A stretch of DNA of 64,000 nt from Scolanthus callimorphus. Taxonomy: Eukaryota; Cnidaria; Anthozoa; Actiniaria; Edwardsiidae. Every line of letters starts with the position of its first letter. Position 1 is the stretch's first letter. The stretch is taken from contig CM066917.1 of assembly GCA_033964015.1 (NCBI GenBank), positions 31,695,951 to 31,759,950 of the forward strand, in the 5' to 3' direction. The position numbers and the translations under genes are program-made. Of the stretch, positions 8,077 through 63,003 are shown one piece after another. The notes under the pieces are model-generated. The model was not told the DNA's origin. It searched no databases and saw only the letters and a list, made by a program, of their open reading frames with translations.

Positions 8077-11000
8077 CTAGTTTAGGCTATACTGGCTTCT
8101 GTCTATGCTCTGTAAAGCCCAGGGTAAATATGTACTCTTTATGTGAGCATCATGCTTATAAGGAGCCGGGATCCAGTTATTGGCAATCCATTTTTGTCCC
8201 TTCTTGAGGGCGCACCCCCCGTGCATGCTGTACTCATCCAGTTCCCCAAGCCAGTCCGACTCCTCATCCAGCAAGTGGTTGTACCACATGATTCCTGTGC
8301 CTTTCTTGGGTTTGACCACAAGATTGGATTCGTAACAGAACTCATTCAGGTTGAATAGATCTTTCCCTTGAGCTCTGTTTATAGCGATATTCTGAAAAAT
8401 AAATCTTTAGAATTGATCTGGGAGTCTAGAAAAACCGCGACGGTTGTGGAAGGAAAACGTGTAGAGAGGGAGTAAGTTTCTCGATTTTCAACGACTTTTA
8501 TTTCTCGCCTTCGAGGAGGACGGTTGCCCATCCACAGTCACACGAAATGGGTAAAAGCCATGTGAAGGAATGTTTCCTTTTCTAGCGGGAACGTCTGTGA
8601 ACAGATTGGATTCGTAACAGAACTCATTCAGGTTGAATAGTTTTTTCCCTTGAGCTCTGTTTATAGCGATATTCTGAAAAATAAATATTTAGAATTGATC
8701 TGGGAGTCTAGAAAAACCGCGACGGTTGTGGAAGTAAAACGTGTAGAGAGGGAGTAAGTTTCTCGATTTTCAACGACTTTTATTTCTCGCCTTCGAGGAG
8801 GACGGTTGCCCATCCACAGTCACACGAAATGGGTAAAAGCCATGTGAAGGAATGTTTCCTTTTTCTAGCGGGAACGTTTGTGAACAGCCCGATGATCACT
8901 AATTGGATTCTTCGCATATCGTTGTGTTTCTGTTTCGATCTACTATTAGCGTAGTTCTTGGGATGTGTGTTCCGATGGATATATTTTACATTGCTGAAGA
9001 CATGACAGAAGACGTTGGACAGCTTCCACAGGAGGCGACCATGGACAAACACTTTAGACTCTAAGATATTCGTATCACCCAACTAGTGGACTTCTGTCAA
9101 TGCTGCACTCTGATTGGCTACGCCTTCTAGTAGCGAAAGCGACGATTTTGAACATAAAAACAATAGCGGCGGCTTCTCGTTTTATCGGGGTTTCTGATTA
9201 TTTTTAGTGATACTAAAATAATAGACCGATCCCGTCTCGCTTGATTAATCACCTAAGAATTCAAAATGTCCTGACTTTGACACTGACTGTCTGACTGAAA
9301 TTGCATGCTAAGCGCGAGCTACATTGCATTTCTACGTAATTGCGCAACAAACGCACCTCTTTGGATAACGTCGCATTATCCGCCACGGGAAAAGCTGTTT
9401 CTCCTCCTTCCTCGACATCATTCAGAAAATATAGAATCGTTATATATCTAGGATTAGAACCGTTAGACAAACTGTTACTTTACGGATACAGAAAACAATA
9501 TGCAAGTAAAATGGGCCATATCATCCCGCCAGCCGGAAGCGCGAGCTTCAAAACGGGTTGCGCGCGCTAAAAATCGAAGAAAGAAAACCATCCAAATTTC
9601 GCCGCTTGTCATACTGGTTGCTGCAGTTTGCATAGGGGTCGTGGCGTCTACAAAAAAACTTCACATGTAAATATGGAAATGCGGAAATAAATACATTTTA
9701 CAGGTCGTAACTGGGAAAGATCATTGTTTCGTACTTGTCACTTCTACTCACCTACAGAGTTTGCACGTCCCAGGTCGTAACTGGGCAATATCACCATGTT
9801 GTATTTGATGACAGCACGGGATCTCTGGCTTCTCGTGCGTCTCCGAGTCAAAGTGACTGTGATAATGGCCGCCCACCTCATATCGGACTACCTGTGGAGG
9901 GGGGAATGGAACGAGGGAATGACAAGTGATGATGGTAACTGCCCCTGAGTTTGTTATTGATTGTGAGCATGAGGATGTGGGGTGGCAATGGTAATAACAA
10001 GGGCGACGACTGATGTTGATGGTGACACGATGCTGCTGTTGTCGGTTGATGCTGATGATAATAATGCTGCTGCTGTTGTTGATGAGGATTATGTTAACGT
10101 TGCTAATGATACTAAGCAATTATTGGATGAGGTTTTGTGATTTCCAGAATAAACAATGTCGAGACAGGTGGAATCAGGCGAGGCCGTGAGGCTAGCCTGA
10201 TTCCACTTGGCGAGATATTGTTTATTCTGGAAATCACAAAAACCGAATTCAATAATTGTTTTATTATACATTGATTCAGTGAAAATACTTTTTTTCTGTC
10301 AAGCAATTTCTTTTACACAAGCGTCTTGTTAAATAGGGGAAACATTCAAAGGACTGTAGTCCCATGAAACATTGCGCGCGTAGGATCAAGAATCAGCTAG
10401 CTGATTCTTCAAGAATCAGCATGCTGATTCTTGGAGACCCTTAAAGTGCGTGATTCCCAAAGTAAAGCGCGCGCTTTTAGCCAATCAGAATCGAGATAGT
10501 GAGTATAATGTATAATAACGAAAATTATGATGCTGTTGTTGCTAATGATAACGATAATTATGATAATGATGCTGTTGTTGGTGATGGTAAAGGTGGTGTT
10601 GGTGTTGGTGATGAAAATAGCGATGACGATAAAGATGATGAGAAATGAGAACTCCAACGGAAGGACAACGTATCAAAGATTCGAAGAGATTACAAACCAT
10701 CTTATCACCATTCTCACCTGAAGAAATTCACTACCGTAAATTATCTCCTTTGACAGCTTCGTCAATGCAAGTACTCTAAGGAGAAAAAACGAGCACACAT
10801 AAAATACGAGCACCTAACTAACTTATTTACTGAGTTTTTCTTTAGCCTATGGAAAGAAAATTATCAAGGCTTGAAAAATTCGATTGGAACTGCTATGTAT
10901 GCGCTTACCATTTGCATTCCGTTGGTTTCCGACTGCTTTCGGGAAATATTACCATAGTTCTGTTCAGCTCGTTCCAGCCAAAGTTGCGGGACACTCTAAA

Positions 11001-29300: not shown

Positions 29301-32300
29301 GGAGACTCTAATTTTTGATAATAGTGGCACTTTAAAAACAAACAAACAAACAAATAAACAAACATGAGCTCCTACCGTCATCTTTGAACGCTTTTAAATC
29401 CAGATTGTCGACCCTATGGGTATGAATAATTATGAAGAGGATAAATTCTTTGGACCTCAAAACAAACCAGTGACGACGACCGCGTAGCCAACATTTCGTC
29501 GAAGGGAGCCCAAAGAAAGACCGAAAGGTAGCGGCCCTTTTTGTTGTACATTTCCCCATACATTGTAGTATTTCGTCACATGTTACTGCATATGTTCCAA
29601 GAGGGAGCGGCAGGCCTCTGGATACACCCTACATGTCTAGTTTTAAGTCTATATGGATGTGTTGTATTTTTTGTAACAGAATGAATAACTAGGGTGACGC
29701 CAGAAGTTCATGGTTGGCACTTCTGGTGACGAACATGGTGACGGAGTGTGTGGGGGGAAGCGATCCTGACCACAACCGACCAACGTCCCTGATTTGGTAC
29801 TCGAAACACTCTCAACTCCACCATTTAGCGGTAACTAGAATGAAGAACCATGAGTGTGGTATACGTACATTTCTTCGAGCTCGTTATCCTCAAGGAAGAG
29901 GTATTTGAATCTCTCAGCAAACTGGATAACCTGCAGAAGAACAGGAACATTATTGTTAATTATCTTGGACACTAGGCCCGTGTCAGCCACTCCCCCGGGC
30001 CACTCTTTGTTATTGTTTTTGTTCGATATTAGAAGACGCATTACGAGTAGAAAGCTCTTTAAAACAAAGTTTCAGAATTGATTTACCAACTTCAATAGAG
30101 AACATTGCTCTATATTCTCTAAATCAGCCGATTGAAATGGATTCTTTCTCCGACGCCGATGCTAAGCTGACAAAATGGCGGCTGTCACAGGCTCTTTAAG
30201 TCCTTCACTATGGCTCAACGACATCCAAAAGCAGCAATTTTATTTTCGTGGCTGTTTATTTGCACAATGATTTGAAGTTTTTGTGAATACTTTAATACCT
30301 CTTTCTTTGAAATCTGATAATCTCTGTTTTGATCCCAGTTGAGAAAATATCCAGCGGTGCTGTTTGAATGACCTGGAGAAAGAAGATAAAGATTTTAACA
30401 AAAACGTCTCAAAAGTGCCTTAAAATGCCTCAATATATAGAACTAGCAAAAAATGTTCAAATTTTGTGAGACGCGTGAAGTGTTACCTTCTGTAGACCTG
30501 ACTATTTTCTTGTGGTCAAGTGTCATGGGGTCCAAGTGGACTTCACTCTCGTACATTCCCGCCTCCTCCGCAAGCTTCAGAATGTGATCACACTCGCTGT
30601 CCGAGAGAAAGTCAGGAATTTCTATAAAGAAAAAGTGTGAAATATATATTTGATTAAATACCTAATCCAATAAAGTTTGCTCTTGGCAATTGAGCATACG
30701 GTCAAATGAAATATGTAATGCTTTGGTTGACCATCAATCAACGAAGTTTAACAGTTCCAATAGCGCTATGAGCATGCGCGCTCTTCTTTACTGAGAAGAA
30801 ATGTCCATTCTCGTATCCAGAGCTCCCCGGCTCGTCTGCTCGCAGGGGAGGCTCTGGGGACATCCATTTGAGGGCCGTCGCTGATTGGCTGATTTTGAGC
30901 GTTGGAGCATTGGAAAGGTCTTTCTCAGCAGCTCTGTATTACATCTCGCGCATGCGTCAGTGGCTGTCACCAGAGCCTCCCCCGCGAGGTTACGAGCCGG
31001 GGAGCTCTGGGTTCGAGAATGAGAAATGTCCAATCCGTCTCCCAAACTACCAGAATGCAGCGCGCGCTTTTTTTAAAAACAGTTTGTAGGGCGCGCGGCC
31101 GTCAGAGCTCGTTTCGGCGAATCGCTCAATCAATTACGGAATTTAGATCTACAGAGGTCATTAAACGGCATGGTGTTCTTTTGTGGAGACTGAATCAGTT
31201 TTGATGAACTTTTTATTATGTAATCCAGTAACTCATCTTTGCACTCAGACATATTGACTTACCAAATATGGGAGGCTGAATGGCACGCGTGATAAGCTTA
31301 ACATTGTTTTGATCTTCGAGCGCCACTTCACGGACATGGCCGATCTAGAAAAAAACATGACTAATGCCAGCCTTCCTTCTTTTGAGAGGGACACATTTTA
31401 AGGGACTATATAACTAACCCTCGCGGGCCAAAATTTGCGATTCAAAATTTCCAATCTAAAAATAGATCAATCTGCTCATGTGCTTCGGACGCCCATCAAT
31501 AGGTGATGGAGACTCATGTTGATGGGCTCCCTGTGCTTCGGGCGCCTATCAATATGGTGATGGAGACTCATGTTGATGGGCTCCCTGTGCTTCGGGCGCC
31601 TATCAACATGTAATGGAGACTCATGTTGATGGGCTCCCTGTGCTTCGGGCGCCTATCAACATGTGATGGAGACTCATGTTGATGGGCTCCCTGTGCTTCG
31701 GGCGCCTATCAATATGTGATGGAGACTCATGTTGATGAACTCACGATAACTGTCACCACAGGGAGACATTTTTCACTGTCTTTTCAGGCCCACGTTCGTC
31801 CCGGACAGCGGTCTCAAGCTCTAGACTCTCGCTTTCAAATCTTGTTGCGACTCTTGAAAGAACTCGCGAAAGGTTTATTCAAAGGTTTGTTTTTCCACAC
31901 TCGCTAACATTCATTACATTGTGGAAATAATGTCGGAGTAACTAAGATTCTCTCTATATTTTCTCTGTTTCCCCGCGGTTCCCCTCGCAGCCTTTTAAAT
32001 AGCTTTAAATCTCGCAGCCTTTTTAATTGCTTTAAATATGTGGCCGCGTTTATCAGTTTCTGTAAAAATCCACGATAATCATTTGCTAGTATGAACAGCC
32101 TACCTTTATCGGTTCATATCTATATAGTCGTGGTCGTCCATCGTCCAAACAAGGACCTTCGTCCAAATCAATATGGCAATGACCTTTGCCGCTACAACTT
32201 GAGCCTTCCTCAGTGGAATTCACGCCCAAAATTCCAGCGTATTTATTCGAAAAACCGAATCCAAAAACTACAAACCATAAAGCAATATAGAAAACAACTT

Positions 32301-32307: not shown

Positions 32308-33667
32308 TGTCGATATTCGAAGATGAAGGCGAGTATTTTTAAAGCTTGTCGAACTTGTTCTGTTTGGATCGCTGAATTGATAATGTTAGCCGAAAGCTGG
32401 TACTTGCTTTATCATCAATCACATGGACCCGTGTGACGAAGCAAAGACAAGCGTAAAAGAAACATAGACTACTATATATACAACGCGTTTCTGGTTAGGA
32501 ATTAATAAATGATATCAGCGAAGAATGGGAATGCAAATCTGCATACATTATCAAAACTGGTGGCTAGTTGTACTATAGGAATCTTTTCTTTTGTTTGTCC
32601 TAGAAAGTTACCAGCAAAATTAAAAAACAAAACATGTGAGATACTTGGTTGTCCTAATAGACACGGAGTTGACTGTTGAGCTAATTATCGATAAAGGACA
32701 CATTGCTGGCTCAAGTTGCTTCTTTTGGGATGCATACATTGTATCACTAATGGGCACAGATTGAATGGTTGGTACACTATAATAATGGGCTCTAGTCCTC
32801 CCACTCAACACCCTCAATGTCGCTTTTTCTTTTTGGTGCACGGAAAGTTGAGGTTTTGAAAACGAACGGGAATGAGTCAGTGTTCTGACAGCAACACTTT
32901 CGGGCAAAATACCGCAGGTTTGCATTTTTTAGATGTGCTTGAAAGTGTTTTGTTTCTGCTTTTTAATAATATTTTAATATACTTTTGACGCGCAGGGTTA
33001 TTTTGGTTTTTATTCATCTTGGGATCTCGAGTAGTATTGTGACTCTTCGATATTGATTGGATGAGTATCATCACTTTAGTGTCTGAGCTCAAGGCTAAAA
33101 GGGGCAATAACGGGGTAATTTTTTCCGCATCTAGAAAATTGCTGGAAAGCTTTTGCAAATCCCCTAATTGTCCTTCGTAATTTGTACTTTCAATATTTGG
33201 AATGGAAGGACTTACAGAAGAATCGCGAAGAGGCGTTCTCGAAAGTCGCCATGTTTGCAAACCGCGCTTATCTGTTTCAAAAGTCACAGGTAACCCATAA
33301 AAAGCCGAAATGGAGGACGAACCACTTAACTCAGCCCGTTGGTTGTACGTTGGACCAATTGTAGTCTAACCAACAGTAAGATTAATAAAATAATTAATAT
33401 AAGAAAAGTAGGCGTTATAACGTAGAATTCTACTTCGCAACACCTATTCTTATTTTTAATCATAAAAAAGCCCGCGAAAATGATATCACTCAGCCTCAAA
33501 ATCAGGTTTCTATGTAAAAGGGCGTTATACTACTGAGAACATTTCACAAATCTCAAAGTTAATTATTGCAATTTTTACACCAATGTTTATACTTTTATTG
33601 TTAAAATTTAAAACTCTTTCATAATATAAACGTTATTCATTATAGTGTACAAGGACTAACAAAGTCT
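32308..33667. other. Intergenic between P4HTM-B and P4HTM-C
   Basis: 1.36 kb holding the P4HTM-B promoter side and the P4HTM-C 3' side. The ORFs here (for example 32877-33287, minus) show no recognisable family and are AT-rich. No conserved gene seen. Confidence 0.5.
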
Positions 33668-36600
33668 CTAAGACGTATACGTTCTAAAAGTATTGTCATC
33701 ATCTTTTGAATCATCAAATTGACTTTCAATGTTGATGTTGGTCAAATCAGGAGCCGTAATCCAGTTGTTCGCGATCCATTTATGGCCTTTGGTCACCCCA
33801 CATCCCCCATGTAGGGTAAAGTTATCTAGATCACCAAGAAAGCCCGTGCTCTCGTCGACAAAATGATTGTACCATAAAATCGCTTTGCCTCTCTCAGGCT
33901 TGACTTGCAGATTGGCGTTTTTACAATATTGCATCAAGTTATACTGGTTCCCCTTTCTCTCCTTGACAAAAGTCTGTGAATGGAAAAGGTGAGATGTTTT
34001 AATTAGTCAGTGGCATTTAAAGAGCCCGTGTCAGCCACTCCTTTGTTATTGTTTTCATTCGATATTAGAAGACGAATTACGTGTAGAAATCTCTAAATTA
34101 ACATCTAAAAACAAAGTTTCAGATTTGATTTACCAAACTCAATCAAGAACATTCCTCAATATACTCTAAATCAGCCGACGGAAATGGTCCGACTTGGTAT
34201 GTTGCTAGGCTGTCAAAATGGCGGCTGACACAGGCTCTTTAACAAGATCTCATTTTCCCGTGTGTCTTTACTGTAATGATGTACAGATCACGTCATAGCG
34301 TATATCATAGCGTGTCGTCTCAGGATGGACTTAACATAAGAGCATTTTCGTTTTTGAGAGCGCAATGCAAAATGTGTAGAGGATTCTCCACGTACATTTG
34401 CATTGTGCAAAGATTTATTCCACGTGTGGCGTACTACATTTAGAAATTTTCACCTTCGCACAAGTTCCCTGTGACGTCATTTACTCAGAGTCTTGTTCTT
34501 TTCAAAAACATTTTCATTGTGGACAATGTAATTTTCCAGCCGCAAACTAAAAGCTAATTCACGCAAGCTGTAGATATCGTTACCGTTTCGTTATATGACT
34601 GTCTGATCGCAGGCTTTAGATATCGTTTCCGTTTCGTTATATGACTGTCTGATCGCAAGCTGTAGATATCGTTACCGTTTCGTTATATGACTGTCTGATC
34701 GCAAGCTGTAGATATCGTTACCGTTTCGTTATATGACTGTCTAATCGCAGGCTTTAGATATCGTTTCCGTTTCGTTATATGACTGTCTGATCGCAGGCTT
34801 TAGATATCGTTTCCGTTTCGTTATATGACTGTCTGATCGCAAGCTGTAGATATCGTCACCGTTTCGTTATATGACTGTCTGATCGCAAGCTGTAGATATC
34901 GTTACCGTTTCGTTATATGACTGTCTGATCGCAGGCTTTAGATATCGTTACCGTTTCGTTATATGACTGTCTGATCGCAAGCTGTAGATATCGTTACCGT
35001 TTCGTTATATGACTGTCTGATCGCAGGCTGTAGATATCGTTACCGTTTCGTTATATGACTGTCTGATCGCAAGCTTTAGATATCGTTACCGTTTCGTTAT
35101 ATGACTGTCTGATCGCAAGCTGTAGATATCGTTACCGTTTCGTTATATGACTGTCTGATCGCAAGCTTTAGATATCGTTACCGTTTCGTTATAGGTGTCC
35201 TTGTCCGCTACCGGGAATGCTGTCGCGCCACCACCCGGACTTCACTCAGATAATAGAGTACTGTAGCGTATCTATGAAAACAAATGAGACTCCATTTGGG
35301 TGTGTATAATATAGATACACAGATAGACACCGAGAACTTCTCAGGGGCGGCGAAACAAAAACGTTAAGTTTCTTGTCCTTCTTGCTTGCTGTCCTTTTGC
35401 AGACGTGTTTTAAGAGATCTCCCCTTGAAGAGATCTCTTTTCGAGGCCACGATCCGGTCGAAAATGCATCAACATTTTGGAAAAAAAAGTTAAGATAATA
35501 CTCCTGTGTCCATACCGACAAAGCCTGCAGTATTTGGGGTCAGATTCTTTCTGATGACAGCACTTGAAGTGTGTGTTTTGATTGATGGGTTGACTGTCAT
35601 AGTGCACATTATAGTGGCCGTCTTTTGTATATCGGACAACCTGCACAACAGAAGATTATAGTTCAGTTTCAGTTTAAAAGCCATTTGCCACGAATTGCAA
35701 TATTATAATAGTCTGGTCAGTCTATATTTGGACAACTACTCTATACTCGAGGATCCAGTGACGTGGGCTCCCTGTGTAATATGAAAAAGTCCAGCCAAAC
35801 CTCCTAACCCAAAACCGCTACAATTCCTGCAATATCGTGTAAATGAAAATTATAAGCTGTTAATCAACCATTCAAGTTTTTATTCTGTAAACATACTTGT
35901 TTGCCGTGGGTGATTTCGTTATCAGATTGTACTATACTGACTTTACTATAGAATATAGCCACAGTGACTATAGGGCTTCAAAGAAGCTTCAAAACAATGA
36001 CTAGAAAACTATCAAATCACGATGTTAGTTCCATGAATATAATATGACGGTTTGTAATCTAGTCTCACCTGAACTGGTTCACTCCCACGGATGATGTCGA
36101 TTGGGAGTTTTGTCAGTTTTTGTGTCCTGCAACAGAGTATAAGCCGCCGTTTTTGCAAAATGCCTATAAGGGGACTGGGGCGAGCCGTGCGGGTTCCCTG
36201 TGGATGCTCAAAATACATCAGGCCTGGCTGATAAGCTAGATCCAACATGGAGGATGCTTTGAATTATCGACTCGCTAAAATGCCTGGAAGTTCTCGCCCA
36301 AATTCAGTGTTTTTCTGGTAAATGTCGCCGAAATTCTTATCAGAAAGGGATCTACCATTACTTCCAAATAAGGTAAATACTTCCAAATTTGGTTTTGGCC
36401 TTTTGATATGTAAATGTCGCCTATTGTCAAGGAGCTGTCGCCTTTCCCAGGATTTTGGATTCACTGGCTATCTGTGGTTTTTGCAATGTCTTTTCTCTAT
36501 GTTCTTTGGCCGGACAAACACCCTTGCCGATGCATACAAATTTCTTCTTTCACATTTCTGTAAGTTCTGATGTATTTTTAGTCGGTTATTTGGCTTGGGA

Positions 36601-39600
36601 AAAAGTCATTGGATTCCAAATATAGTAAGTTAAAACAATATGCAAGGACGTCTTGGGATTCGCATATCAAGAAAGTTCCATTAAAAAGAATTGTCCACTT
36701 TCTTCAACTTCCTTATAAGGGACTATTTGCATTACTATTTTCATTGACCTAGAATACTGAAAACTCGACCAGAACTCAAATATTCGAAGAAAGATGCTAT
36801 GTGCATTTTCCACTGTGTTTTCCACTGTCAAGGACCTTGAAAGGTAGACAACACACCACAGGAAGCCCACTCGAGCTCTAGAAATTTTGGCTTGGTGTTC
36901 GTACCTCTCCCTCAGTCTTTTCATGACTGGATCTGATCGTCTGTCCTGAGGGATCCATGCCTGGTTGCTGAACCTGTCCTTGTGCACAGGGTGCTCTTGT
37001 AGTAGAGTGTCCATGTAAGACACTATGGAGGCTGTCGGGAAGGTCAGCCATTCATCAATCGTCACTCGGCCTGACGATGAAAAGTCGTAAATATGTCACC
37101 TAATGTTTGCTCCAAATTGACGTCACTCACGGAGCTTCTTGGCATGAGTCCCTCTAGTGACGTCATTCTTTGGGATCTTGTAATGACGGCATTCGTGACG
37201 TCATGAGTTCATATAGTAACGCCAAATGACGGCAAACACAGGAAAATTATGCAGAAAAGCTGAATTTCCCATGGTAGAAGAATGGGAAGTGTTCGAATTC
37301 CCCATGGCTATCCATGTGAATTCCAAACACTTCCACGCGTGTGCTATAGGAAATTTAGCTTTTCCCATGGATAGGTCATTCTGCATAATTTCCCTGTGAA
37401 ATCATTAAATTACAATATGATGGGAACGTGAAAAATAAGGCGACACCATTTGTAAGGTCGTTGTTGAGGTTACGTCATAGTGAATGTGAAATAGTTCTAG
37501 TGGCATCAGTGTGTGATATATGAGCTTTAAAAGGGGCCGTCATTAGTAACACTTGTCGGTTGACGTCATTCTCGACGTGCGTTTTGTGAATTAGAAAGCG
37601 AATTTTACTAGAAATTTAAAATTATTTCATGTCGTGATTCTTACCGTCGTCAAGCTGTTTTAGATCCAGTTTGTGTATCCTGAAAAAATCATTGGAAGCA
37701 CTTAGATGTTGCGTTCCCTACTAAAATATCCCCCAGACCTGTTTCAAACGTAGATCTTCACCGCGCTGAATCTAATTCGTTTTATCACCATTTTACAACC
37801 AAAGAAAAAAGCTACCAGAATCGGTCAGATTTTATAATCAACAGTTTCCTGCCATTTGCCATCTAGTGCATGTTTTATTGAACAAACTATCCTCCGGCTT
37901 GTACAGAACATTTCTTAACAATTAGAATCGACACCCTGTTCACCCGCAAAGGGAAAGAGGGGAGGACTCTGGGGGAGATGAGGGGAAGAACCTGGCGCGC
38001 CAGGAAATGTGAAATGTAACGCAACTACCGAAATACAGAGCGCGCATTCTTTATGATAGCTGGAATCAATTAAATTGCTATGGTGTTTTAGGCATGGAAT
38101 CGGTTGATTTATTTTATCGGGTCCCATGGTACATACATTTCGTTCACTTCCTTGAGGCTCATGTATAGGTACTTGAATTTCTCACCAAACAGTGCGATCT
38201 GTAAAAGTGGACGAAAGAGTGTTTAACCTTCTCACGCACAAGACAGACACATCGCCATTATCTTCATATTTAGGCCTTGATTGGTTGATCAGCCTGTGCT
38301 AAGTCATTGCTACTGTTGGCTTATAGATCCGTCTCCCAAAGGGAGCACTTCACCTCGCATATAACTAAGAGTTTTGAGAACAATTCCTATAGGTCCAGTT
38401 TCTCAAAGAAAAGTAGAGTGGCGTTTCTTTCTAGAAATTTCTTTTTAGCGAGTTTCTTTCTAGAATTAACCAACCTCCTGCTTTGAAATATATCCATTGT
38501 CATCTGCATCCCAGCTGCGATACATTGAAGCCACACCATGAGAATGACCTATAATGTGTAGATGAACGACGCAGAAAACAAAGGCATTAAAACTTGCAAA
38601 TCAACCCCTTCTTTAGAATTCTGTTCTTTAGCTAGGAAATTTGAAATATTGCCGTGTGGAAGTTCTCTATGTGAAACAGGAAACCTGCAAGGTTTCATTC
38701 AACATTTCACCGTTTTCTTGCTACTTTTGCCGAAATTCTTATTAAAAGAGGAACTTCTGTCACTTCCTTACATGGTAAATGATTCCAAATATGGTTTTGG
38801 CCGTGAGGTGTTGAAAAACGACAATTTTCGTCAGGGATTGTTTGATATGTTTCGAATTCTTCTCCGACCAAAATTTATGGGACCCCTCCTCCCCCCCCCC
38901 CCCCCCCCCCGAAATCTGTCATGGTGTTCTGTGCTCGTTACCATGGTTACCTTGGATGCTCTTGTGCTTGTCCAATAACGTTTCGTCAAAGTGCGTGTTA
39001 CTTGTACTCAGTCCCTTGGATACCGCCAGCTGTTTGACGTGTTCTTGTTCATCTTTACTGAGAAAGTTTGGAATCTCTGGAACAAAATGCAAAGAAATGA
39101 AACAACGGAATATCCAAGAATCCGTTCATGGTATTATCATCAAGAGGTCATGTGGACGATTCCAGCTATAAGCGCGCCCATTCTTCTCTATTCGGAATAC
39201 CCAAGGCATGCATGTTCCACAACCAACCGGAATGCAGTAACATTTTGTTCAATAATATCCCCCATTTACCGTCATGCAGCGCGCGGGTGCATGTATCTGG
39301 AATCGTCATTAAACCCAGAAAATTGAATACCGTTCACAAGGGAAAGTTCTTTTTTGCAAGTCGATAATATGTCGGGACAAGTGCCAGGGCAATCTTGCCG
39401 TAAGTGTCCAACTCAAACATGGACGACTCTCGTTTCTAATTTCGTCGATCTAGTACCTCCGATCCGTGTCTTACCAAAAATAGGCGGTTTATTTGAATGT
39501 GTTATCATCTTGTACATTTTGCCTGGTTCCAACTCAAGCTCGCGGATAAATCCTTTCTGTTGAAAAGAAAAGATGCTTCATCTATCTCATGCCTTCAATA

Positions 39601-41207
39601 TCACCTTAATTTTATCAAAGGAAGACAATACATGTAAACAAAGCACGTGACTCTGCGCACTCTGTGTTTGCACAACCATTCTCGTACCCAGAGCTCCCCG
39701 GCTCGCTCCTCGCAGGGGAGGCTCTTGTGACATCCATTTGAGGACCGTTGCTGATTGGTTGGTTTTGAACGTTGGTGCATGCGCAGAAAGATCTTTCTCT
39801 CAACGGCTCTGTATCAAATCTCGCGCATGCGTCAGTGGCTGTCACCAGAGCCTCCCCCGCGAGAAGACGAGCCGGGGAGCTCTGGGTAAGAGAATGTTGC
39901 ACAACAGGTGTTGCATATGGTCACAGTCATGACGAATTTCACCCGGCTTTGTGGGTTGAAATTTCAGCCCCGCCTCTTTCACGAATGCTTAGAATTCAGT
40001 CCGGCCGGAAAACCTCCCTCATCTTCTCTCCGAAAAATAAAATCCCGCCTGATACTCAGGCTATGTAATAGGACATTTGCATGATGACGTGGTTGACTAC
40101 AACTACCAGAAACCTTTGTGTGGCGGCTTATTGTGTAGAACATTAAGGCTGTTATGCTCTTATTCACGAAGGAATTTGTTGATCTGAATAAGAAAGGGAA
40201 ACTGAAAAGGATTCTGGTAGTTGTAGTCAAATGACGTCATCATGCAAATGTCCTATTGCTCCCAGATTTTTACAGGGTGAAAAAAAGACAAATATGCGTC
40301 CACGTTTTCATCCATTCTCGAACCCAGAGCTCCTCTGCTCGTCACCTCGCGGGGGAGGCTCTGGTGACAGCCATTGACGCATGCGCGAGATTTGATACAG
40401 AGCCGTTGAGAGAAACACCTTTCTGCGAAATGCCCTAACGTTAAAAATCAGCCAATCAGCGAAGCCACTCAAATGGATGTCCCCAAAACCTTCCCTCGAG
40501 CAGACGAGCTGGGGAGCTCTGGGTACGAGAATGGTTTTCATCATGCGTCACGTAAGCATGCGCCGTGAAGACAGTTGGCGAGTCAGGCAGCCTGGGCAGA
40601 GTTTTTTTCATGTAATCAAACTTTATATCTGAGCACCGCTCTCATCCGATGTGAATCTTGATCCGGATTTACTGCGGTTTTTATAATTCTGCGGACTGTT
40701 TATCGCTTAACTACGTTCTGGTCATGCAGTCCGTCAATTCAAGTTTTAAGCGATAAAAAACAATTCCTTGACAGACTGGACAATCTTACTGATATCTAAT
40801 TATACGCAAAAGTCCATCTCGCGTTGAGGTTCATGAGCTCTGTCGGTAGGCTCGATTACAGTGTATGAAAGCACAAAGCCGGTAATTCATTTATGGCAAA
40901 TCAAAAACTAAGTCATATTATCGCTCATCGCGATAATACGAAACGATTCGTTTAAGACCGTATCTTTGAATTGACCAAATCAAAGCTAAGACAGACGTTC
41001 CCCCAGTATCATTCTCTTTCTTACCCTCATTGGTTCCCAGCGATAAAGTCGTGGTTTGTCATCGTTCATCACACATGGCCCGGCGTCCTCATTACGATAG
41101 CAAACACCATTTTCACAATTCGGGCTGTACTGCTCACGTCCAAAAACGCACCCGCAAACCGCAATAAATATGAATAAAAGACATCCCTGGGCCAGAATAT
41201 TTGCCAT
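33668..41207 (-). CDS. P4HTM: P4HTM-like prolyl 4-hydroxylase C (11 exons, 1-base deletion in exon 10)
   Basis: Third paralogue. Exons in transcript order: 41025-41207, 39475-39556, 38951-39076, 38475-38548, 38137-38198, 37645-37679, 36905-37070, 36069-36126, 35516-35640, 35182-35271, 33668-33973. Signal sequence in exon 1 (CLLFIFIAVCGCVFG). The best EF-hand of the three is DADDNGYISKQE (exon 4); a second, weaker site is LDDGRVTIDEW. Iron ligands H275-x-D277 and distal H in TLHGGC, with Lys ten residues later (H389, K399 if the frame is restored). Exon 10 is 90 nt where the paralogues have 91: after YLSEV the frame breaks (near 35236-35240) and is regained as GGATAFPVADKDTYNET only if one base is added. 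With it the protein would be 435 residues. Exon 10 ends on a donor that belongs to a 46-bp tandem repeat filling the start of intron 10. Either an assembly error or a recent null allele. Confidence 0.9.
34017..34242. mobile_element. TTAA-type MITE family T2, copy 2 (complete)
   Basis: TTAAAGAGCCCGTGTCAGCC and GGCTGACACAGGCTCTTTAA are inverse ends, with TTAA at both borders. Carries CAAAATGGCGGCTGAC near the right end. P4HTM-C intron 10. Confidence 0.88.
34563..35194. repeat. 46-bp minisatellite containing the exon-10 splice donor
   Basis: About 13.7 copies of a 46-bp unit (CTGTAGATATCGTTACCGTT, then TCGTTATATGACTGTCTGAT, then CGCAAG). On the minus (coding) strand each unit includes AACGAAACG|GTAACG, the last codons of P4HTM-C exon 10 and its 5' splice site. 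Copies vary at the donor: GTAACG in most, GTGACG in one, and GAAACG (donor lost) in several. The copy nearest the exon overlaps coding bases 35182-35194. Confidence 0.97.
37237..37398. mobile_element. Inverted-repeat MITE, P4HTM-C intron 6
   Basis: CACAGGAAAATTATGCAGAA at the left pairs with TTCTGCATAATTTCCCTGTG at the right. Inner arms AAGCTGAATTTCC / GGAAATTTAGCTT and AAGTGTTCGAATT / AATTCCAAACACTT continue the symmetry. About 160 bp. Confidence 0.85.
38891..38910. repeat. Poly-C run (poly-G on the coding strand), P4HTM-C intron 3
   Basis: Twenty consecutive C, 41 bp past the exon 3 donor on the minus strand. The run length is likely unreliable in any assembly. Confidence 0.9.
39150..39317. 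mobile_element. MITE family M1, copy 4
   Basis: TGGACGATTCCAGCTATAAG at the left, CTGGAATCGTCATT at the right. Diverged core with GCGCGC. P4HTM-C intron 2. Confidence 0.75.
39677..39896. mobile_element. MITE family R1, copy 3
   Basis: CATTCTCGTACCCAGAGCTC to GAGCTCTGGGTAAGAGAATG, with the CGCATGCGTCAGTGGCTGTC core in the same orientation as 30806-31021. P4HTM-C intron 1. Confidence 0.85.
40067..40257. mobile_element. Inverted-repeat MITE, P4HTM-C intron 1
   Basis: AATAGGACATTTGCATGATG at the left, CATCATGCAAATGTCCTATT at the right. Inner arms GACTACAACTACCAGAA / TTCTGGTAGTTGTAGTC also pair. About 190 bp with a central non-paired 80 bp. Confidence 0.88.
40313..40533. mobile_element. MITE family R1, copy 4 (inverted orientation)
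   Basis: CATTCTCGAACCCAGAGCTC to GGGTACGAGAATG. The internal CATTGACGCATGCGCGAGAT shows it lies opposite to the copy at 39677-39896. Confidence 0.85.
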
Positions 41208-57219: not shown

Positions 57220-59022
57220 CTTTTCTGAAATAGCTGTAGACGAACATGATAAAAACACAAAATTACATGGTAATACAAATATTTACATGCAAACTCAATA
57301 AAATGACGCCTGCGGCGAATGTGGCCTGGCACAGATTCTGTAGCACATGATGCACTCCTGCCATGCCCCCCCCCCCCACCCAACCCCAATGGTCTGGTAG
57401 GCATTTCAGAGTTTGACGCACGATCAGATGGCTCCAGAGCGTCCTCGTCTGAGAGATTACACGAACAACGACGAGACCCTACTAGGATATGTCTGAAACT
57501 AGCCACAGGGGGCCCAAAAAACGGAAGCAAAAGCACCCGAGAAAAACAAACGCACCTGCCGAGAAGGTTGGAGGCGCCGTGGGCTACCAAGATTTTAACG
57601 GAAAAAGTACAAAAGCGCATAAAAACCGCAAAAAAGCAAAAACTATTACTCTTAGCAAAATCGACACCTAAGGCAACCTGCCGTGCCCTTGTTCCTTCCT
57701 CAGCGTCATCACCTTAATTTCTATCTTTAAATAATTTCGCGGAGCTCCACTTTTAAAGTCGAGTATAGTCTTAATATATAAGATAAGCTTGACGGAAAAT
57801 CTCGTCATACGTGAGCTTTGGCAAAACACTCACCGACTCCTCGAGGGCGATATCTTTCCCTTGGCAAACTCTTCGGTTTTATCACTGCTTCATATACATT
57901 TCACCGATTGCTGTATTCACCTTTTTCGTCTTTTAATTATTCCGAGAGCAATTTAAGAGTTTATTATGAGAGTACCTAGTGCGAATGTTGGTAGGTAGGC
58001 TACATCAGTTCTATTTAATTAAGTACTGTACTCAAGCTCGAGTGCCGACAAACAAAGATCTGAATTTGAACCATGAATTGCGGTGAATCCTTGCGCGTAT
58101 TCAATATCTACGATGCACGAACGCTTAAGTGAACACCGCATACCATATCAAGAGATAGCTACTGTTAGTGATAATTTCTATAGGAAAAGATTATCAGTGA
58201 CAAACATATATGAAGCACTTCTTAAAACGTGCTTGAAATATCGCATCCAGAGCGTCAAAACGTAGGATTGTTTGCTTGGCGGATAAAAAAAGAATACGAG
58301 TTGATATTAATATTACAAATAGTATTATATTCGTGGACAACGAGTGGTGCGAAGTGTCTAGCTTTTTTAAATGACAATATCGGAGGATTTATATTAAAAT
58401 CTCCGCACGACAGTCTGTATATTTATGTGTCATGACCTTTTGGAAAATCTCGACAATCTGACACGAAGAACCAAACTTTAAAAGATGACTTTCCTAAATC
58501 AATATTTTTAAGAATTGAAAATCTGGAGTAAAATCCGCATAGAAAAATAGGCGTGTCGGTATAGCGGTCTCTTCACAATATCGACGGGCGAAAGCTGACG
58601 GCTACGAATCACAAAATATAGGAATTACTTGGTCTCTTTTTAAACTGCTGTCTTCTCAAGTGAACGCACAACACGATAGCAATACCATCACTCAATTAAG
58701 AGGATTACTATCTAAAGCGCGCTAGGCGTCATAGGAACAAACTTTTAATACAAGATTTTCCGCAGGGGAGTACTATTATAATTGTCTCAAATAGTGGGTA
58801 GTGGCATAAAAACTAAATATTGGCCCGTAATCGTTTGAATTTCAAGGAAAATTTATATTGTACTGTTAATAAGTATTACTTGTAATTACTGATGTGCGTA
58901 TACTAGGCAGAAGGCAGGTGGAACCTTGGACTAGCCGTGTAATTACAACCCGAAAGATTCCCACGTATACACTTTAAACTTCAGCCGTCCGCACGCTAAC
59001 AATGTAAAGAGACGCTTGGCAA
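57220..59022. other. Upstream region of GPCR-2
   Basis: 1.8 kb without a recognisable gene. ORFs at 57192-57620 (-), 57319-57717 (+) and 57489-57671 (+) overlap in different frames and show only low-complexity basic sequence. A poly-C run is at 57365-57376. Confidence 0.45.
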
Positions 59023-60005
59023 ATGGATGCGAAAAACAACAGTTCTTGGTTGATCGATAACACCACTGTATCTGCGTGCTCTGAGGAGAGGATAGAGTTC
59101 AAACTGGCCAAGTATATCTTCTATGGAGTTATATTTATTGTCAGTTTAATCGGGAACTCGTTCGTGTGTTTCAACGTTTGGAAACGAACTCGCATGAAGA
59201 CGGTGATCAACTATTTCTTGGTGAATCTAGCAACTTGTGATCTGGCCTTTACGTCGATCTGTCTTCCTTTCGATATCCCGGTCCAGGAAAACTCGTTCAA
59301 ATGGCCGTATCATCCGTTTTTCTGCAAAGTGATTTTCCCGCTTCAGACGATGTGCGCGTTTGCGACAGTTTTCACGCTTGTCGCCATTGCGCTCAGTCGC
59401 CATCGAGCTGTAGTGCACCCCATGAAAAGACAACTCAGCCTCGCATCAACGCGCTTAGTTATCGGCGTGATATGGGTGCTGGCGATGCTCTGTGTTATCC
59501 CGTATGCCCTAGTCCTTGAGGTCAACTCAGAAACAAGACTATGTATCGAACACTGGCCTGAACCCGCAGCCTTGCATAGCCGCGTTTACACTCTATTTAT
59601 CTTCGTGGCCCAGTATGTCATCCCGCTTATCATCATATTTGGGCTTACATGGATATTTGCCGCGAATTGAGAAACAATCGCACGCGATTTCAAACGACGC
59701 CTCACTCTGCACGCGCCAGGGATTCGGAAAAAGTCCTTAAGATGGCGATGGCGGTTACACTTCTTTTCACTGTCTGCATGCTGCCCAACCATATCGTCTG
59801 GTTGTTACTCGATTTTCTGAATGCGCAGTATATTCAGTGCAATCGGTGGTTCCTCGTTGCAAATATCTGCGTTTTTATCAATAGCGCTGGAGACCCGGTC
59901 GTGTTTATAGCGTTTAATCAAAGGTACAGGGAGGAGTTTCTAAAGACGGTACCACGCTGTTGCAAAGAATGCGATAAACGAACAAACAGACACTGTGTGC
60001 GATAA
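59023..60005 (+). CDS. Rhodopsin-class GPCR 2, peptide-receptor-like, one frameshift
   Basis: Single-exon receptor read in two overlapping frames, 59023-59670 and 59649-60005. The first gives an N-terminus with glycosylation sites (NNSS, NTT), TM1 with LIGNSFVCFNVW, TM2 NYFLVNLATCDLAF, TM3 from FFCKVIFPLQTMC to ALSRHRAVVHP (SRH in place of DRY), TM4 and TM5 up to IPLIIIFGLTW. The second continues with ICRELRNNRTRF (ICL3), TM6 LLFTVCMLPNHIVWLLLDF and TM7 FINSAGDPVVFIAF (DPxxF in place of NPxxY), then a Cys-rich tail (CCKEC). One base is missing between about 59645 and 59660; restoring it yields about 326-328 residues with all seven helices. It resembles neuropeptide receptors of the RFamide/tachykinin type, with ligand unassigned. 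Intronless, as is common for cnidarian peptide receptors. Confidence 0.88.
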
Positions 60006-61950: not shown

Positions 61951-63003
61951 AGGACCTGATGGTAAGCGCCAGGACCTGATTGGTCCAGATGGTTAGGGCC
62001 TGACCTGATTGGCCCGGATGGTTAGGGCCTGGACCTGATTGGCCCGGATGGTTAGGGCCAGGACCTGATTGGTCCAGATGGTTAGGGCCTGGACCTGATT
62101 GGTCCAGATGGTTAGGGCCTGGACCTGATTGGCCCGGATGGTTAGGGCCAGGACCTGATTGGTCCAGATGGTTAGGGCCTGGACCTGATTGGCCCGGATG
62201 GTTAGGGCCAGGACCTGATTGGTCCAGATGGTTAGGGCCTGGACCTGATTGGTCCAGATGGTTAGGGCCAGGACCTGATTGGCCCGGATGGTTAGGGCCT
62301 GGACCTGATTGGCCCGGATGGTTAGGGCCTGGACCTGATTGGCCCGGATGGTTAGGGCCTGGACCTGATTGGCCCGGATGGTTAGGGCCAGGACCTGATT
62401 GGCCCGGATGGTTAGGGCCGGGACCTGATTGGCCCGGATGGTTAGGGCCAGGACCTGATTGGCCCAGATGGTTAGGGCCAGGACCTGACTGGTCCAGATG
62501 GTTAGGGCCAGGACCTGACTGGCCCGGATGGTTAGGGCCTGGACCTGATTGGCCCGGATGGTTAGGGCCTGGACCTGATTGGCCCGGATGGTTAGGGCCA
62601 GGACCTGATTGGTCCAGATGGTTAGGGCCTGGACCTGATTGGCCCGGATGGTTAGGGCCTGGACCTGATTGGCCCGGATGGTTAGGGCCTGGACCTGATT
62701 GGCCCGGATGGTTAGGGCCTGGACCTGATTGGCCCAGATGGTTAGGGCCTGGACCTGATTGGCCCGGATGGTTAGGGCCTGGACCTGATTGGCCAGATGG
62801 TTAGGGCCTGGACCTGATTGGCCCAGATGGTTAGGGCCAGGACCTGATTGGCCCGGATGGTAGGGCCAGGACCTGATTGGACCAGATGGTTAGGGCCAGG
62901 ACCTGATTGGCCCGGATGGTTAGGGCCAGGACCTGATTGGCCCGGATGGTTAGGGCCAGGACCTGATTGGCCCGGATGGTTAGGGCCTGGACCTGATTGG
63001 CCC
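61951..63003 (+). repeat. 30-bp minisatellite, about 35 units, each with a CCAAT site
   Basis: Unit GGACCTGATTGGCCCGGATG, then GTTAGGGCCT. Variants alternate CCCGG and TCCAG after ATTGG, and GGGCCT and GGGCCA. Because 30 is divisible by 3, all frames stay open, giving artefactual Gly-Pro-Trp ORFs on both strands. Nearly every unit has CTGATTGG, the inverse of CCAATCAG; two units carry GACTGG instead. Confidence 0.97.

Follow-up and report, generated by a model that had tools for sequence, protein, structure and literature searches.

A 46-bp minisatellite that spans the exon-10 splice donor of a P4HTM-like gene in Scolanthus callimorphus

In Scolanthus callimorphus, the exon-10 splice donor of a P4HTM-like gene forms the first unit of a 46-bp minisatellite that enters intron 10 from the exon edge and repeats the donor position 14 times. 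We regard this array as an ordinary minisatellite specific to its locus, founded by a tandem duplication across the donor and extended by slippage or unequal exchange (probability about 0.8). Positions refer to the window, the whole 64,000-nt stretch analysed (GenBank assembly GCA_033964015.1, contig CM066917.1, positions 31,695,951 to 31,759,950 of the forward strand), and the gene, here called gene C, and its array are read from the minus strand.

The array occupies 34562..35193, where TRF reports a period of 46, 13.7 copies and 95% matches (score 1152). Splitting it on the coding strand yields 14 head-to-tail units, each beginning AACGAAACGG and each composed of 12 nt (four codons) from the end of exon 10 followed by 34 nt of intron. 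A 30-bp stretch of the intronic part matches 13 times in the window with at most three mismatches (the 14th unit being cut short), against a mean of 0.00 in 100 shuffles. The unit split, TRF and the shuffle control thus uphold the array of about 14 copies across the exon-10 donor that a first-pass annotation had described; its extent, given there as 34563..35271, holds for the array except at its far end, since exon 10 has its 5' end at 35271, beyond the array edge. Ten units carry the donor hexamer GTAACG, as does unit 1 (35176..35181) among them, and the unit split together with U1 pairing assigns the remainder to one variant, GTGACG in unit 8 (34854..34859), and three dead donors, GAAACG in units 9 (34808..34813), 10 (34762..34767) and 13 (34624..34629). 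GT is therefore present in 11/14 units, or 10 of the 13 downstream ones, and GA in three, in agreement with the earlier remark that several copies had lost it. All three GA units share a linked variant, TAAAGCC, a pattern that duplication of a single mutant unit would produce. Five sites vary in the 13 full units (the partial 14th excluded), two of them inside the donor hexamer, and variable sites make up 2/6 of the hexamer against 3/40 of the rest of the unit (Fisher p = 0.12; p = 0.20 when the hexamer is compared with intronic sites only). There is no sign that donors are conserved between units, and the difference, though non-significant, points away from conservation.

That the outermost unit holds the authentic donor, as first proposed, is borne out by paralogs, other family loci and homologous proteins. 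Gene C (33668..41207) has 11 coding exons separated by GT-AG introns; exon 10 (35182..35271) ends ACG/GTAACG, with its last base at 35182, and from the acceptor at 33973 onward exon 11 (33668..33973), the last coding exon, is read in phase 0 of the homologue frame. Exon 10 ends at the same codon in paralog A (GAG/GTGCGT, 9357) and paralog B (AGC/GTGAGT, 19782). We examined 30 family loci, five of which have no exon-10 match and two of which are gene C itself; GT stands exactly at this codon in 18 of the other 23, a set that counts A and B as well as allelic copies and duplicate fetches of a gene, while it stands three bases later in two and is absent there in three. Nor is there a gap at the junction itself in the alignment of 15 of the 90 homologous proteins. 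The agreement of paralogs and homologues on this boundary indicates that unit 1 is the real donor and that 12 nt of every unit derive from coding sequence.

Gene C is one of three P4HTM-like genes (A, B and C) arranged in tandem on the minus strand between 8125 and 41207, and further members of the family lie on contigs C1, C3, C5 and C6 and elsewhere on C7, the contig of the window. Its product matches PF13640 (2OG-FeII_Oxy_3) at 42 bits against a cut-off of 27 and the human P4HTM structure 6tp5 at E 8e-40, both queries carrying an X at the frameshift described below; the profile search matched one further family, below that family's cut-off. Exon 11 presumably encodes the distal iron-binding His (LHGGC) and the 2OG Lys region, if these residues have the roles that they have in the P4H family. 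Human P4HTM has an EF-hand region. No EF-hand family matched the gene C product at E 0.001, for which reason we call it P4HTM-like rather than P4HTM, and several close cnidarian homologues (e.g., P0004, P0006 and P0008) also list none. The best of the named entries among its 90 protein matches share about 50% identity with it and belong to Oculina, Porites and Montipora.

Because 46 = 3x15+1, arithmetic that is correct, successive donors had been expected to shift the reading frame stepwise. This does not happen at the level of protein: in the homologue frame, donor 1 leads into exon 11 and the normal end, whereas all 13 later positions (10 with GT) run into one in-frame TAA in unit 1 (35143..35145) and give an identical tail, VTISKACDQTVI. 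Since donors 2-14 share this stop, the stepwise frames never reach protein, and a frame-stepping switch as proposed is excluded. The TAA lies 7 nt before the junction made by donor 2, 53 nt before that of donor 3 and at least 99 nt before those of donor 4 onward. Mammalian nonsense-mediated decay follows a 50-55-nt rule. Under that rule, which may not hold in cnidarians, transcripts from donor 2 would escape decay, their stop being so close to the last junction, those from donor 3 would sit at the threshold, and those from donor 4 and beyond would be targets.

Gene C as assembled departs from this homologue frame. Compared with homologues, exon 10 has a frameshift of 1 nt near 35240 (35230-35250), so that the frame is not intact through exon 11, and frame analysis places a TAG stop at 35208..35210, its end 26 nt short of the donor-1 junction and thus ahead of all 14 donors. 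For the same reason, the array's +1 length as a rescue of the frameshift can be ruled out. The lesion is either that of a pseudogene or an assembly error. Under the former, gene C would be a recently dead copy in which the array drifts, a reading that is compatible with an ordinary minisatellite and that we hold to be a real, if tentative, possibility. The frameshift and the TAG speak for it, as does the finding that none of the 90 protein matches is a full or truncated gene C product (identity reaches 58% at most, in a match that covers 53% of the query). However, the other 10 coding exons are open and have GT-AG boundaries, the 2OG-oxygenase domain is retained (in the X-bearing query), and an assembly error of a single nucleotide is possible, a single-exon receptor-like gene in the window looking similarly frameshifted. 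The open frame of that gene (59008-60002; GPCR-like by eye) is split near 59650 as if by a 1-nt indel.

Donor strength was scored as pairing with the 5' end of U1 and as matches to the nine consensus positions. Donor 1 is weak (-5.2 kcal/mol, 5/9 matches): values for the remaining nine donors of the gene span -3.0 to -11.1 kcal/mol, with worse pairing at exons 5 and 9 only. Over the 11 nt scored, the later GTAACG donors are the same as donor 1. The GTGACG of unit 8, which had been taken for a stronger donor, is not stronger (-5.3 kcal/mol, 4/9 matches), and GAAACG pairs at -1.7 kcal/mol. Exon 10 and intron 10 together hold 62 GT sites, and donor 1 is surpassed, slightly or clearly, by three that lie outside the array, at 35235 (-7.5), 34454 (-6.9) and 34134 (-5.3); U1 pairing alone does not, therefore, single out the real donor. 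Stable RNA structure as a mask over the donors was considered and rejected, as the opposite was found: exon 10 and the array fold less than 20 shuffles (z = +7.1), indicating that the donors are not hidden by structure.

On the reading of an ordinary minisatellite, a tandem duplication across the exon-10 donor would have founded the array, and slippage or unequal exchange would have carried it into intron 10. Exon definition probably keeps donor 1 dominant; an occasional switch to a later unit would yield the one truncated tail, without exon 11, and such forms would act as splicing noise or a mild loss of function and not as a coded switch. In favour of this reading are the lack of genome matches outside the array, the absence of any sign of donor conservation, the linked variant of the GA units, the single TAA that all later donors reach, and the abundance of arrays around the gene family, the duplication in gene A included, set beside the chance of so small an exon overlap (both below). 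On the other side, some real use of the later donors may occur, the later GTAACG donors match the weak donor 1, three GT sites outside the array pair better than it does, the donors are not hidden by structure, and GT is retained in 11 of the units.

Contrary to the initial statement that no system of this kind had been described, two are known in humans, the ABCA7 intron-18 VNTR and the 6-16/IFI6 (G1P3) minisatellite. The 6-16/IFI6 unit is 12 nt long and keeps the frame. Two downstream units of that repeat serve as splice donors (PMC4526556), and the paper of Turri, Cuin and Porter (1995) on this minisatellite is cited by PMC4526556, PMC2572611, PMC3618361 and PMC2915984. As in gene C, where the donors are predicted, one minisatellite offers several donors to one transcript; unlike in gene C, whose unit breaks the frame and carries a stop, the downstream units of 6-16/IFI6 yield different protein isoforms. 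The 25-bp VNTR of ABCA7 includes the exon-18 donor and comprises 23.7 units in the reference genome (De Roeck 2018, PMC5954066). It resembles the array of gene C in that the minisatellite adjoins an exon whose GT donor belongs to the first repeat unit, and in that its unit is of length 3n+1 (25 = 3x8+1), one retained unit being out of frame. The two differ in gene, sequence and animal; moreover, the ABCA7 repeat begins at the GT whereas the gene C unit also copies 12 coding nt, length polymorphism and splicing effects, which for gene C are hypothetical, have been measured for ABCA7, and the length effect found there concerns skipping of the next exon, which in gene C is the last coding exon. 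In a third human case the length of the MIR137 VNTR is associated with alternative 5' splice site use (PMC6692358); the alternative donors are located in the exon's pre-miR-137 sequence, and the passages cited here do not assign them to repeat units, whereas those of gene C lie inside the units.

The ABCA7 precedent bears on the possibility that the array is a length-dependent brake, in which added units would multiply the competing donors, raise the share of truncated or decayed transcripts and lower the amount of full enzyme, in a graded and not a stepwise manner. We consider this unlikely. Identical weak donors in 10 of the 14 units would provide the competition, and the shared stop in unit 1 makes any later donor loss-of-function. 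In ABCA7, retention of one unit through the next-unit donor amounts to 2 +/- 1% and leads by frameshift to a premature stop, and skipping of exon 19, the next exon, increases with VNTR size (PMC5954066). However, single-unit retention there is constant across VNTR size (PMC5954066). The want of conservation among donors and the stop that the assembled gene already has before the array count further against a brake. Less probable still, and in our view improbable by a wide measure, is a copy-number-dependent rheostat in which longer alleles divert more transcripts to the one truncated form, products of donor 2 escaping decay and later ones being destroyed; if this were so, each extra unit would contribute a further copy of the weak authentic donor.

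The least credible origin, a dispersed satellite or mobile-element repeat inserted at the donor by chance, is rejected at the search sensitivity used, the array being the sole genome match: in the 597-Mb assembly (302 contigs), all 10 matches to an exact 15-mer of the unit and all six to a two-unit query fall in the array (as a control, the same 15-mer read backwards matches the genome five times; these searches skip very common words and may overlook repeats that are diverged or very abundant), the unit begins with 12 nt of conserved coding sequence, and no Rfam family or ribozyme matched over 33600-35700 at E 0.1 or better. One copy of the gene C locus was found in the assembly, and no second haplotype of it; a recent paralog of gene C without the array was likewise not found, the ten best outside matches being 48-54% identical.

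An array that touches a donor is no great surprise at this locus, given how common arrays are near the family, a base rate taken from the window and from loci of the family. For the 30 loci examined, TRF returns 25 rows of period at least 20, counting alleles, repeated fetches and overlapping periods: two are the gene C array, one is a duplication in gene A and 22 are others. None of these 22 comes closer than 68 nt to exon-like sequence, in a distance check that missed exon 10 of gene C, short and frameshifted as it is, and so listed the array itself as 577 and 316 nt away. If a 632-bp array is set down at random positions of gene C and may cover no more than 12 nt of exon, about 4.6% of placements overlap an exon by 1-12 nt. 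Together with the abundance of arrays, this chance makes one donor-touching case unsurprising.

Several of the other repeats deserve a description of their own. The gene A duplication (8321-8887) is a 282-bp tandem repeat of two copies, 97% alike, which takes in the exon-11 acceptor with the 5' portion of that exon and so presents two candidate 3' splice sites. A 53-bp minisatellite of 4.9 copies (31479-31737) lies upstream, on the coding strand, of an early exon of gene B at about 31344, without reaching it, and a 30-bp array of 35 copies (61958-63003) holds long repetitive open frames on both strands. In one paralog, a 24-bp repeat (L032:2233-2450, L031) has about nine copies on contig C7 and about two, as judged from aligned coordinates, on the colinear contig C18. 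This is likely a haplotype difference in length, and it shows that arrays can vary in length in this genome, and that alone. Contigs C18 and C27 resemble alternate copies of other family loci.

Judged by its sequence, the array of gene C belongs structurally with those of ABCA7 and IFI6 as a donor-spanning minisatellite, in a different gene and lineage; as a gene-control switch it is unproven. Our literature search, whose coverage of corals was slight and which does not establish absence from print, found no cnidarian minisatellite that bears a donor. The locus thus extends to a cnidarian the layout in which a splice donor has been absorbed into a minisatellite, and its near-identical donors, spaced at 46 nt, would allow the choice of the spliceosome between equal sites to be tested cleanly in a natural setting.
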